From Chlorobiota bacterium (GTDB lineage Bacteria; Bacteroidota; Bacteroidia; Bacteroidales; VadinHA17): 64,000 nt of DNA. Below, piece after piece: positions 48,830-53,331 of the stretch (positions are counted from its first letter, which is position 1; the number at the start of each line of letters is the position of its first letter). The notes under the pieces are model-generated. The model was not told the DNA's origin. It ran no database searches and was given only the letters and a program-made list of their open reading frames with translations. Both the position numbers and the translations under genes were made by a program. The stretch covers positions 90,572 to 154,571 of the forward strand of contig JAADHC010000052.1 in assembly GCA_013152085.1 (NCBI GenBank), read 5' to 3'.

Positions 48830-49013
48830 TTTGCATGCTTTTAAAGACGTAAAGATAAGATTATTCCGGGAGTCTGCCAGCAGTAAAACAATACCGGTAA
48901 TCCTGGAGATATCTTTTACAGTCAGATCAAAAGTTAAGGCAAAAAAAGGAGGAAACAGTTTAAAAAATAAAGGATTATTCCCTCTGATTATTATGTTCTT
49001 TATGTATCTTTAA

Positions 49014-49031
49014 CCGGACAGTATAGTCCGG
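49014..49031 (+). promoter_or_regulatory. Short hairpin at the start of the Moco-type leader
   Basis: CCGGAC (49014-49019) pairs with GTCCGG (49026-49031) around a six-base loop. Its right arm overlaps the left arm of the outer stem P1 of the leader, so the two cannot form together. A -7-like TATCTTTA lies just upstream at 49005-49012, so this hairpin would fall at the very start of the RNA or just inside it. Confidence 0.45.
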
Positions 49032-49150
49032 CTCCGAGTCTGGTGATCTTAAACAGGCGGTAAAATGAGACCCAGACCAATGGGTTAAACGGGAAACCGT
49101 TTGGCCTCCCGATTCCCGGAAATGCGGGATGAATTGGAAAGGAGATCCGA
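49027..49150 (+). promoter_or_regulatory. Structured leader resembling the molybdenum-cofactor (Moco) RNA motif
   Basis: About 125 bases with the layout of the Moco motif: an outer stem in which CGG/CTCC (49029-49035) pairs with GGAG and CCG (49141-49149); a stem GTCTGG/CCAGAC (49038-49043 with 49072-49077); a six-base-pair hairpin with a GAAA tetraloop (49087-49102); the segment GGCCTCCC (49103-49110); and a hairpin CCCG/CGGG (49115-49128). The words CTCCGAG, AGGCGG and GGCCTCCC are those I remember as conserved in this motif. The genes that follow are for Moco synthesis, which supports the call. The remaining 48830-49013 stretch contains guaA leader sequence and the likely promoter. Confidence 0.72.
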
Positions 49151-49154
49151 TGCT

Positions 49155-49212
49155 AAACCATATCCGTATGGTTTTCAGTCATTCGTAATCTTCTTTCCGT
49201 AACGGCTGAAAA
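49155..49212 (+). promoter_or_regulatory. Candidate expression platform of the Moco-type leader
   Basis: AAACCATA / TATGGTTT (49155-49162 with 49167-49174) make an eight-base-pair hairpin with loop TCCG. TTTTCAGTC / GGCTGAAAA (49172-49180 with 49204-49212) make a second nine-base-pair hairpin. The two share bases 49172-49174, so they partly exclude each other. The second ends just before the AAAAGGA ribosome-binding site at 49215-49220 and the ATG at 49222, so control at translation start is plausible. Confidence 0.5.
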
Positions 49213-49221
49213 TAAAAGGAT

Positions 49222-49944
49222 ATGGAAACATCACTCCTCATTGCAGTCTTTTTCATCGCCATTCTTTATGCATCCGTCGGACATGGCGGGGCAAGTGGTT
49301 ACCTGGCCGTCATGGCTCTGTTTGCCATGGACCCCGTAATGATGAAAAGTTCGGCCCTGACACTGAATCTTTTTGTAGCCGGGATTTCTTTTTACGCTTT
49401 TTACAAAGCCGGTTATTTCAACCCCCGGCTATGGTGGCCGTTTGCCCTTACTTCTGTTCCCTTTGCTTTCCTTGGCGGTACCATGAATGTCAATCCCCGC
49501 ATCTATAAGGTCATTCTCGGTATATTTCTCATTTTCGCCGTTTTCCGTATCGTTTTCAGACCAAAAGGTTCAAACGAAATAACAAAAATACATCTCCCGT
49601 TGGCACTGTTCACAGGGGCAGTCCTGGGGATATTTTCCGGAATGATCGGCATCGGCGGCGGTATAATCCTCAGTCCATTGATCCTGCTTCTCGGATGGGG
49701 AAATATTAAAGAAACTGCCGCCACGTCAGCCTTGTTTATACTTGTTAATTCCGTAGCAGGCCTGGCAGGACTTATTTCACAGGGTGCAACTTTCAGTCCC
49801 CTGATACCTTTTCTTGCCGGAGCCGGGATCCTGGGCGGATTGATCGGCGCAAGAATGGGCAGCATGAAAGTATCTTTCGTCCAGCTCAAGTATCTGCTTT
49901 CTTTCGTTCTTCTTTTTGCCGGCATCAAACTCATTCTCTTTTGA
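49222..49944 (+). CDS. TauE/SafE-family anion transporter
   Basis: 240 residues, about seven to eight membrane helices in two similar halves. Family motifs are YASVGHGGASGYLAVMAL near residue 17 and the second-half repeat SGMIGIGGGIILSPLILLLGWGN near residue 145. Characterised members carry sulfite, sulfoacetate and other organosulfonates or oxyanions, mostly outward. Here it is the first gene after the Moco-type leader and lies 19 bases before moeA, so a substrate connected to Moco (molybdate, tungstate, or sulfite from a molybdoenzyme) is a reasonable inference, but the direction and ion cannot be read from sequence. Confidence 0.88.
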   Translation: METSLLIAVFFIAILYASVGHGGASGYLAVMALFAMDPVMMKSSALTLNLFVAGISFYAFYKAGYFNPRLWWPFALTSVPFAFLGGTMNVNPRIYKVILGIFLIFAVFRIVFRPKGSNEITKIHLPLALFTGAVLGIFSGMIGIGGGIILSPLILLLGWGNIKETAATSALFILVNSVAGLAGLISQGATFSPLIPFLAGAGILGGLIGARMGSMKVSFVQLKYLLSFVLLFAGIKLILF

Positions 49945-49963: not shown

Positions 49964-51151
49964 ATGACCGATAAAGACAACCCTTTGACTTTGCCCGTTG
50001 CAACTGTCCTCAACCTTGCTCCCGAATACACAACCGTGCAGGTATCCCTTGAAGATTCCCTCCACCGTATACTTCAGGAAGATATTTTTGCCGACAGCGA
50101 CATCCCTCCATTTGACAAATCAGCTATGGATGGGTATGCATGCAGGAAACCGGACCTCGGCAATCCACTCGAATGTATCGGAATCGTACAAGCCGGCATT
50201 TTCCCAAAAATGAAAATCGGTCCCGGACAATGTGTAAAAATCATGACGGGGGCGGCAGTCCCGGAAGGTGCCGGAATGGTCTTCAAACTTGAAGATGCAG
50301 ACATATTGCCGGACGGCCGGATACAATGCACTGACACCGGCTCCAAACGCAATATCTGCAACCGCGGTGAGGATGTAAGAAAAGGAGACATTCTGATAAC
50401 AAAAGGGACACTGATTACCTCACGACATATCCCGGTACTTGCAGGGGCCGGATATGACAAGGTCATTGTGGCACGGCACCCTGTAACCGGGATCATTGCC
50501 AACGGTACTGAACTGGTTGAACCCGGTTCAACCCCGCAAAAAGGACAGATCCGGAATTCGAACAGCTACCAGCTCGCTGCACGGCTTCATGAACTCTCGG
50601 TACCATACAAGTATTTTGGTATTGCTCCGGATATTTCTGAAGCACTCACGGAGATTATCCGGGAAGCCGGAAAGGAAACAGATATTCTCCTGGTAACAGG
50701 TGGCGCTTCAAACAGCGACTTTGATTTGGTTCCCGGGGCCCTGACCCGACTGGGATATAAACTGCTTATCCGGGAAACCGGTATGAAACCCGGCAATCCG
50801 ATGACCTTTGCTACCCGGAACGGGAAAGTTTGTTTCGGACTTTCCGGAAATCCTGTATCGTCCTATATCCAGTTCGAGGTTTTCGTCAAACCATTCATTA
50901 TGAAGTTTATGGGTATGTCCAGGAATAGTGAGATAAAAAAATACCGTATGGGGGAAAAGTTTACCCGAAAAAATGCCGGAAGATTCGGTTTCCATCCGGT
51001 CCGCATTACTAAGGAAAACGAAGTATTTCTTGTTGAATACCATGGTTCTGCACATATCCGGGCCCTCACCGTTGCTGACGGACTAATTGAAATTGAGGCC
51101 GGTAAAACCACAATAAATAAAGGAGATATTGTCAATGTTAGACCGTTTTAA
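49964..51151 (+). CDS. moeA: Molybdopterin molybdenumtransferase MoeA
   Basis: 395 residues from the ATG at 49964; an upstream in-frame start at 49916 would overlap the transporter gene. MoeA signatures: DIPPFDKSAMDGYA near residue 50, VKIMTGAAVPEGAGMV, NICNRGEDVRKGDILI, the molybdopterin-binding VTGGASNSDFD, and GKVCFGLSGNPVSS. It inserts molybdate into adenylylated molybdopterin. Its last 17 bases overlap the start of moaA. Confidence 0.95.
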   Translation: MTDKDNPLTLPVATVLNLAPEYTTVQVSLEDSLHRILQEDIFADSDIPPFDKSAMDGYACRKPDLGNPLECIGIVQAGIFPKMKIGPGQCVKIMTGAAVPEGAGMVFKLEDADILPDGRIQCTDTGSKRNICNRGEDVRKGDILITKGTLITSRHIPVLAGAGYDKVIVARHPVTGIIANGTELVEPGSTPQKGQIRNSNSYQLAARLHELSVPYKYFGIAPDISEALTEIIREAGKETDILLVTGGASNSDFDLVPGALTRLGYKLLIRETGMKPGNPMTFATRNGKVCFGLSGNPVSSYIQFEVFVKPFIMKFMGMSRNSEIKKYRMGEKFTRKNAGRFGFHPVRITKENEVFLVEYHGSAHIRALTVADGLIEIEAGKTTINKGDIVNVRPF

Positions 51152-51935
51152 CCGGAAAATAACCTACCTGAGAATCTCGGTAACCGACCGATGCAATCTC
51201 AGATGCACTTATTGCATGCCCGAAGAAGGAATTACACTGATCAACCGTTCAGATATCCTCAGCTTTGTTCAAATCGCCGAAGCTGTCAGGACAGGAAGTG
51301 AACTGGGTATCCGGAAAATACGGATTACGGGCGGAGAGCCCCTGGTGAGAAAAGACCTGCCTGAACTGATCACCATGATCCGGAGAATTAAAAAGATTAA
51401 GGAAATCGGCATGACAACCAACGGTACGCTACTCGACAAATACGCCGGTACACTTAAACAGGCGGGACTGGACAGGGTAAATATAAGTATGGACACCATA
51501 GATCCTGAAAAATACAAGAAGATTACACGGATGGGAAACCTCGAATCGGTATTCAGAGGAATCAAAGCAGCGCTGGATGCCGGACTTACCCCCGTGAAGA
51601 TTAACTTTGTCCGGATCCCGGAGGTAAATGAGGAAGATGAAGAACAGGTAAGGTTATTTTGTAAGGCAAACGGTCTTAAAATACGGGCGATCAGGCAAAT
51701 GAACCTGGCTACAGGAGAATTTTACCCTGTCGAAGGCGGAATGGGCGGTGTCTGCAAAATCTGTAACCGGCTACGGCTCACCGCTGACGGTTATCTCAAA
51801 CCCTGCCTCTACAGCGATTTGGGTGTTCCGATCCGTGAAATGGATATGAAAAAAGCTTTTCTGACGGTAATCGGGCAAAAACCAAAAGAGGGAGAAACCT
51901 CAACTTCACATCAATTTTATAATATAGGAGGATAA
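51135..51935 (+). CDS. moaA: GTP 3',8-cyclase MoaA, unusually short
   Basis: 266 residues from the ATG at 51135, which has AAGGAG 10 bases upstream; normal MoaA is about 320-330. The radical-SAM cluster is intact (C20, C24, C27 in RCNLRCTYC), as are TGGEPLVRKDL and MTTNGTLL. The second cluster, C207-X2-C210-X13-C224 in CKICNRLRLTADG, is present but begins about 50 residues earlier than in E. coli MoaA, because the stretch between the barrel strand IRQMNL and this site is shortened. The C-terminal GG needed for activity is kept (NIGG). The frame is continuous and stands in the right operon place, so I read it as a compact active form rather than a decayed gene. It makes the cyclic GTP intermediate of Moco synthesis with MoaC. 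Confidence 0.88.
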   Translation: MLDRFNRKITYLRISVTDRCNLRCTYCMPEEGITLINRSDILSFVQIAEAVRTGSELGIRKIRITGGEPLVRKDLPELITMIRRIKKIKEIGMTTNGTLLDKYAGTLKQAGLDRVNISMDTIDPEKYKKITRMGNLESVFRGIKAALDAGLTPVKINFVRIPEVNEEDEEQVRLFCKANGLKIRAIRQMNLATGEFYPVEGGMGGVCKICNRLRLTADGYLKPCLYSDLGVPIREMDMKKAFLTVIGQKPKEGETSTSHQFYNIGG

Positions 51936-51937
51936 CC

Positions 51938-52393
51938 ATGACACAAAAGCTCACGCACGTTGACAACCGCGGGAATGCCCGGATGGTAGATGTAAGTAAC
52001 AAACCTATTCAGATGCGGGAAGCCCGTGCCACAGGTGAAATAAAACTCCTGGAATCCACCTGCAGGCTGATCCGCGATAACCAGATAAAAAAAGGAGATG
52101 TGCTCACTGTGGCCAGGATCGCCGGTATCCAGGCAGCAAAGAATACAGCCGGTCTGATCCCGCTCTGTCATCCCCTGAATCTTGACGGGATCGAAGTCAA
52201 CTGTACCGTTGATCAAAACAGGGTAATCGCCGAAAGCCGGATAAAAACCACCGGAAAAACCGGTGTCGAAATGGAAGCCCTTACAGCTGTCTCCGTCGCT
52301 CTTCTTACGGTCTATGACATGTGTAAAGCCGTCGATAATTCCATGGAGATCGGAAAGATCAGATTACTGGAGAAAATAAAAAAGGATATATAA
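51938..52393 (+). CDS. moaC: Cyclic pyranopterin monophosphate synthase MoaC
   Basis: 151 residues, normal length. LTHVDNRGNARMVDVSNKP, KGDVLTVARIAGIQAAKNT, LIPLCHPLNLDGIEV, and GVEMEALTAVSVALLTVYDMCKAVD are all family blocks, with the active-site lysine and histidine. It turns the MoaA product into cyclic pyranopterin monophosphate. A strong ribosome-binding site GGAGG overlaps the last codons of moaA. Confidence 0.96.
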   Translation: MTQKLTHVDNRGNARMVDVSNKPIQMREARATGEIKLLESTCRLIRDNQIKKGDVLTVARIAGIQAAKNTAGLIPLCHPLNLDGIEVNCTVDQNRVIAESRIKTTGKTGVEMEALTAVSVALLTVYDMCKAVDNSMEIGKIRLLEKIKKDI

Positions 52394-52398
52394 AAACT

Positions 52399-53331
52399 AT
52401 GGAACAGTTCATTGATATTATATCGGTAAATATTTCGGCTGAAAAAGGAACCGTCAAAAAGCCTGTTCCGGAGATCACCATTACCGGTACCGGTATTGCG
52501 GGAGATGTACATGCGGGCCACTGGCACCGCCAGGTCAGTCTGCTTGCCTCCGAAAGCATTCAGGCTGCAGCCGAAAAAGCCGCTGCTGATTTTCCCCCGG
52601 GGATTTTCGCCGAAAATATTACTACGCGGGGATTTCCGGTACACAAAGCCCGGATATTGGACAGGTTCGCCGGCAAGAATATCGAACTGGAAGTGACCCA
52701 GATAGGAAAGGAATGTCATACCCAGTGTGAAATCAGCCGGAAAACAGGAAACTGTATCATGCCCATTGAGGGGATTTTTTGCCGTGTAATTACCGGAGGG
52801 AAAATGGTTCCGGGAGACAAAATGATTTATAAACCGTTTGTTTTCCGGTCAAAGGTCATTACCCTGAGTGATCGCGCTGCAAAAGGAATTTACAGCGATC
52901 GCAGCGGACCGGAGGTTAAAAGAATCCTCGAAGGGTTTTTCAAGAACCAGGAACGGCATTTCGCAATTGACAATACCATCATCCCGGACAATCCGTCAGA
53001 ACTGGAACACATTCTGGATGAATCGATATCGGATGGTTACCATGCCATATTTACAACGGGTAGTACCGGGGTCGGCCCGCAGGATATTGCACCTGACGTT
53101 CTCAAGCCCCTGTTCGACAAGGAAATTCCGGGAATCATGGACCACATACGCCTGAAATACGGACAAACCAACCCCAATGCCCTGATCAGCCGTAGCGTGG
53201 CCGGGACCATAGACAAAACCATGATATTCGCACTGCCCGGTAGCGTTAAAGCAGTAAAGGAATATATGACAGAGATTACACCCCTGCTTGAACACCTGTT
53301 ACGGATGATACACTCAATTGATAATCACTAG
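52399..53331 (+). CDS. MOSC domain fused to MogA/MoaB-type molybdopterin adenylyltransferase domain
   Basis: 310 residues. Residues about 1-145 are a MOSC domain (GIAGDVHAGHWHRQVSLLA, then CHTQCEISRKTGNC with the conserved cysteine). Residues about 150-310 are a MogA/MoaB domain (ITLSDRAAKGIYSDRSGPEV, IFTTGSTGVGPQDIAPDVL, ALPGSVKAV). The MoaB part should adenylylate molybdopterin before MoeA; MOSC domains act in sulfur transfer to molybdenum enzymes. The fusion occurs in other anaerobes. It ends the Moco operon; moaD, moaE and mobA are not here. Confidence 0.9.
   Translation: MEQFIDIISVNISAEKGTVKKPVPEITITGTGIAGDVHAGHWHRQVSLLASESIQAAAEKAAADFPPGIFAENITTRGFPVHKARILDRFAGKNIELEVTQIGKECHTQCEISRKTGNCIMPIEGIFCRVITGGKMVPGDKMIYKPFVFRSKVITLSDRAAKGIYSDRSGPEVKRILEGFFKNQERHFAIDNTIIPDNPSELEHILDESISDGYHAIFTTGSTGVGPQDIAPDVLKPLFDKEIPGIMDHIRLKYGQTNPNALISRSVAGTIDKTMIFALPGSVKAVKEYMTEITPLLEHLLRMIHSIDNH

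Follow-up and report, generated by a model that had tools for sequence, protein, structure and literature searches.

A P3-less Moco/Tuco-family riboswitch ahead of a TSUP transporter gene and molybdenum cofactor genes in Bacteroidota

The operon and its leader RNA

Five genes stand in a row on the + strand of the window, the whole 64,000-nt stretch of DNA that was analysed. The first gene encodes a TSUP (TauE/SafE, PF01925) membrane transporter (49222-49944; Pfam PF01925, E 1.7e-31, 110.1 versus 32.6 bits). It is followed by four genes recognised by profile matches: moeA (49964-51151), a short form of moaA (51129-51935, 268 aa), moaC (51938-52393), and a MOSC-MogA/MoaB fusion (52399-53331). 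The initial annotation gave the last four in the right order and left out the transporter. The 268-aa MoaA matches TIGR02666 in two stretches with 274.0 bits, just below the cut-off of 284, and the MoaA frames of relatives are about as short.

The RNA in front of this operon is a genuine member of the Moco/Tuco riboswitch family (RF01055). The covariance model of the family scores 45.1 bits at positions 49020-49161 (+ strand), above its gathering score of 36 (E 1.5e-7 for the whole window), and all of its 135 positions are covered. The window contains no other Rfam match, and RF01055 matches nowhere else in the genome. The leader had been named a candidate Moco-type riboswitch at 49027-49150; the name is borne out by the model score and by covariation, and the aptamer is real but slightly longer than first drawn.

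In the aptamer, P1 is formed by CTCC (49032-49035) with GGAG (49141-49144). The P2 hairpin (49038-49077) pairs 49038-49048 with 49067-49077; its inner pairs are imperfect in this RNA, and ten of its 11 pairs show two-sided changes among relatives. The place of P3 is taken by a 5-nt linker (49078-49082), which the model alignment finds with the same length in all 32 aligned RNAs of the order. Next come the P4 hairpin (49083-49106) with its GAAA tetraloop (49093-49096) and the P5 region (49108-49137), in which CC at 49108-49109 pairs with GG at 49136-49137 around a distal hairpin. P1 and P4 are placed by the model alignment and covariation, and P5 by the fold and covariation. Three of the sequences first picked out as conserved-looking are indeed conserved: CTCCGAG (49032-49038), which covers P1 and the beginning of P2, GCCTCCC (49104-49110) in P4/P5, and the GAAA loop. 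AGGCGG is present but, in the alignment of relatives, lies within the variable P2 loop.

Covariation supports P1, P2, P4, and P5. In the alignment of the 32 order RNAs, 87.4% of the cells are paired and two-sided changes occur in 22 of the 27 pairs. The covariation score is 0.534 compared with 0.187 in shuffles (none of 500 as high), two-sided changes number 187 against 65 in shuffles, and the signal is lost when the pairing partners are slid. Family membership is thus indicated by the score, by covariation in these four stems, by the GAAA tetraloop, and by the position upstream of Moco genes on the same strand.

The best known relative is the leader of moaABCDE in E. coli (RF01055), which has the same P1, P2, P4 with GAAA loop, and P5 and controls the same pathway. 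Unlike the E. coli leader, the RNA described here has no P3, and the first gene behind it is that of the TSUP transporter.

Directly 5' of P1, a hairpin CCGGAC-AGTATA-GTCCGG is predicted at 49014-49031. Upstream of it, TATCTTTA (49005-49012) resembles the Bacteroidota -7 element, TAnnTTTG. Together with TCTG at 48983-48986 it forms a possible promoter, from which transcription would begin near the first base of the aptamer. A sigma-70 promoter scan of the + strand gave nothing useful.

Distribution and the TSUP transporter

The abstract of Regulski et al. 2008 (PMC2408646) names gamma- and deltaproteobacteria, Clostridia, Actinobacteria, and Deinococcus-Thermus as carriers of this riboswitch, and Bacteroidetes are not mentioned in the text consulted. 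The RNA is not a lone Bacteroidota case: when 393 genomes of the order were sampled, RF01055 scored above the cut-off in at least 32, and in a 395-genome sample of the phylum it did so in at least 19 (this genome and 18 others), both counts being lower bounds owing to strict filters. A known riboswitch class is thereby extended to a phylum absent from the abstract of its founding paper. Carriers include a cultured Carboxylicivirga, which has both the RNA and TSUP, and metagenome-assembled genomes of Prolixibacteraceae. Judged by these relatives, the window probably belongs to the Bacteroidales. The riboswitch was not found in any of 35 sampled members of the family to which this genome belongs, and no missed copy was found at three further loci that were searched (L145, L250, and L251). 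Two matches of 29.1 and 30.2 bits (G396 and G706) resemble terminators and are not counted.

TSUP is found directly behind 20 of the 33 RNAs of the order. In a panel of 80 genomes, all 20 strong TSUP matches lie behind the RNA, and the 29 genomes picked for lacking the riboswitch contain none. Two weaker clade members (E about 1e-70, G595 and G758) have no RNA directly upstream. The 80 nearest TSUPs in named genomes were drawn from 85,000 genomes. The RNA lies just upstream of 14 of them, and 60 of them have Moco genes at a distance of 7 kb or less, compared with 0 of 17 distant paralogue loci (some of which are short). Riboswitch-linked TSUPs also cluster on the tree, with 2 changes versus 25 in shuffles.

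Searches of the genome itself, one draft assembly that is 99% complete, found no ModA/WtpA, no TupA, and no MOT1, that is, no known molybdate/tungstate transporter of the ModABC, WtpABC, TupABC, or MOT1 kind. In the order, all ten MoaC-positive panel genomes without ModA/WtpA carry TSUP, and they belong to ten different families. Of the MoaC-positive genomes that lack TSUP, 17 of 17 have ModA/WtpA, compared with 9 of 19 among those that carry TSUP (Fisher p 0.0004, a guide only, as are all p-values here, since related genomes are not independent samples). In one genome (G202), the place of TSUP is occupied by MFS_MOT1, a known molybdate transporter family.

The position behind 20 of 33 RNAs, the linkage to Moco genes, and the presence in 10 of 10 genomes without ModA/WtpA make TSUP a candidate molybdate (or tungstate) importer. 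This would be the new part of the operon, beside a riboswitch of a known kind, and the riboswitch, taken as a marker, suggests what an orphan transporter clade may do. A less likely alternative is that TSUP is no molybdate carrier and serves dithiolene or sulfur metabolism by exporting sulfite or another sulfur anion. The name of PF01925 and its known members, which act on sulfur anions, agree with such a role, as does the occurrence of TSUP relatives in a different Moco-containing cluster in Flavobacteriia. What argues against export is the distribution of TSUP and ModA/WtpA in MoaC-positive genomes (10/10 and 17/17 versus 9/19, as above) and the molybdate-transporter family that stands in for TSUP in G202. 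By sequence, no relatives of TSUP with solved structures were found, and its fold match to BacA is weak (E 0.0098). A search of mostly open-access literature found no paper linking TSUP with a Moco riboswitch.

A locus comparable to the one proposed here as an uptake and synthesis operon is found in Caldithrix abyssi (PMC5317091). It also has a Moco riboswitch, moaA, moaC, moeA, and MOSC genes, and a transporter gene, but the transporter there is MFS_MOT1, of a known family, in place of TSUP.

Other first genes exist. TonB-dependent receptors come first behind P3-less Moco RNAs in two genomes (G357 and G088; L061:389-2434 and L075:1131-3398), which suggests outer-membrane uptake of a molybdenum or tungsten compound, and similar 755-aa frames are seen at L079 and L080. 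In two others (G329 and G392; L065:1063-2310 and L071:912-2096) the first gene encodes a protein of 395-416 aa and is followed by that of an NTPase_1 protein; the L065 protein has no Pfam or NCBIfam match.

P3 and the choice of metal

P3 is missing from this RNA and from all 32 aligned RNAs of the order, which places it in the P3-less subclass. The first assignment to the Moco type was right as to the family; by the 2008 classification, the missing P3 makes the RNA Tuco type. An extra stem at the place of P3 is seen by eye in some other Bacteroidota RNAs. In Regulski et al. 2008 (PMC2408646), P3-less RNAs are proposed as sensors of the tungsten cofactor (Tuco), tupA/tupB or wtpA serving as markers for tungsten, and 17 of the 19 organisms with such RNAs have tungsten genes. 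Those RNAs likewise stand before genes of MPT/Moco synthesis. In contrast to them, the genome described here lacks the tupA and wtpA markers, and AOR, added here as a further marker, was not found in the draft either. The genome has one MoaC and a single PF00384 enzyme, of the DMSO-reductase family. The gene of this enzyme is followed by genes for an iron-sulfur subunit and a PLP enzyme of Cys/Met metabolism, with a caspase-domain protein nearby (L249:1660-6250).

Proteins of PF12849 were considered as TupA and rejected: the eight examined are all PstS-like or PstS-GcvH fusions, including the only one from this genome. This protein, 576 aa long, is PstS-like in its N-terminal part and GcvH-like in its C-terminal part (L238:1366-3096), and one is also found in G164. 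AOR was likewise tried as a predictor of P3-less RNA and showed no correlation. It tracks ModA/WtpA: in the order, 22 of the 26 MoaC-positive panel genomes that have ModA/WtpA also have AOR, as against 0 of the 10 that lack ModA/WtpA.

Judged by its gene content, the genome is an exception by the rule's own markers, and the P3 rule is neither confirmed nor broken. The uniform lack of P3 in the order, taken with the 17 of 19 organisms reported in 2008 (PMC2408646), keeps alive the reading that these RNAs specifically sense Tuco and that TSUP brings in tungstate. We regard this as conceivable but not favoured: the genome has neither AOR nor ModA/WtpA, its sole PF12849 protein is a PstS-GcvH-like fusion, the ten TSUP genomes without ModA/WtpA are also without AOR, and the metal of its only PF00384 enzyme, of the DMSO-reductase family, is unreadable from sequence. 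We tentatively propose, at somewhat less than even odds, that the TSUP clade marked by the riboswitch imports molybdate (or tungstate), a role so far unrecognised, and replaces ABC transporters in many Bacteroidota. On this reading, P3-less riboswitches of Bacteroidota would be at work in genomes that lack tungsten markers, and loss of P3 would not equal tungsten. Genomes such as these can test the long-standing, unproven rule that P3 loss switches the RNA from the molybdenum to the tungsten cofactor.

Expression platform and proposed control

Unlike in the E. coli moaABCDE leader, P1 does not itself hold the ribosome site here; a separate helix over the start codon is predicted downstream of the aptamer, along with an anti-P1 strand. 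The switching strand GGAAAGGAGA (49136-49145) belongs to P5/P1 in the closed aptamer and to the anti-P1 helix in the open state. Its partner is the anti-P1 strand TCTTCTTTCC (49189-49198), with which it can form 10 bp; a complement this good occurs in 0.5% of shuffles. In this alternative fold the 10-bp helix encloses the AAACCAUA hairpin (AAACCATA-TCCG-TATGGTTT, 49155-49174). In the other fold, CCATATCC (49158-49165) pairs with GGATATGG (49218-49225) across the start codon of TSUP, and a hairpin TTTCAGTC:GGCTGAAA joins 49173-49180 to 49204-49211. The segment downstream of the aptamer folds with -27.2 kcal/mol, a stability that none of 500 shuffles reaches, and in this stable fold CCAUAUCC is paired across the AUG.

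The two mutually exclusive states, as modelled, fit feedback repression of translation. With the cofactor bound, the aptamer would hold GGAAAGGAG (49136-49144) in P1/P5; CCAUAUCC could then pair with GGAUAUGG across the TSUP start codon and block translation of the first gene. With no cofactor, UCUUCUUUCC (49189-49198) would capture GGAAAGGAGA, the hairpin nested in the anti-P1 helix would sequester CCAUAUCC, and the start codon would be freed. In this way, plentiful cofactor would shut off the import of the metal and the making of the cofactor at the same time. When the growing chain is folded without ligand, the anti-P1 state is predicted at 49200-49220, at a length where the start-codon helix is not yet possible, and the OFF fold from 49225. 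The lowest energy without ligand is -82.6 kcal/mol for OFF versus -78.3 for ON; since equilibrium favours OFF, the ON state would require kinetic control. The start codon is still partly paired in the ON model (mean unpaired probability from -4 to +4 of 0.28 versus 0.00 in OFF), the wider region from -8 to +3 is nearly equal between the states (0.40 versus 0.35), and occlusion of the start region alone is not exceptional (170 of 500 shuffles). Only 7 of 33 relatives have a significant anti-P1 complement, and platforms therefore vary. In two genomes (G280 and G230), for example, the start codon follows GGAG at a distance of 6 nt.

Control mainly of transcription, by termination or antitermination, is improbable here: although three relatives (G350, G203, and G087) combine the anti-P1 strand with a terminator hairpin followed by a T run, and the E. 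coli Moco RNA is reported by TaRTLEt to act through termination (PMC12121620), no terminator was found between aptamer and start codon in the window, and what comes after the TTTCAGTC:GGCTGAAA hairpin is ATAAAAGG instead of a T run.

A P3-less riboswitch that turns translation off when the cofactor is bound, ahead of an operon for metal uptake and cofactor synthesis, is as a whole the best explanation, with a probability of about 0.8. Membership of the aptamer, covariation, the operon, and the conserved TSUP linkage are observed at the locus and among its relatives. From these and the two modelled RNA states we infer the ligand, the sign of control, and the import of molybdate (or tungstate) by TSUP. 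Within the expression platform there is also a 12-codon open frame (MLNHIRMVFSHS, 49150-49188), 5 nt behind the AAGGAG of P1, which may be due to chance.
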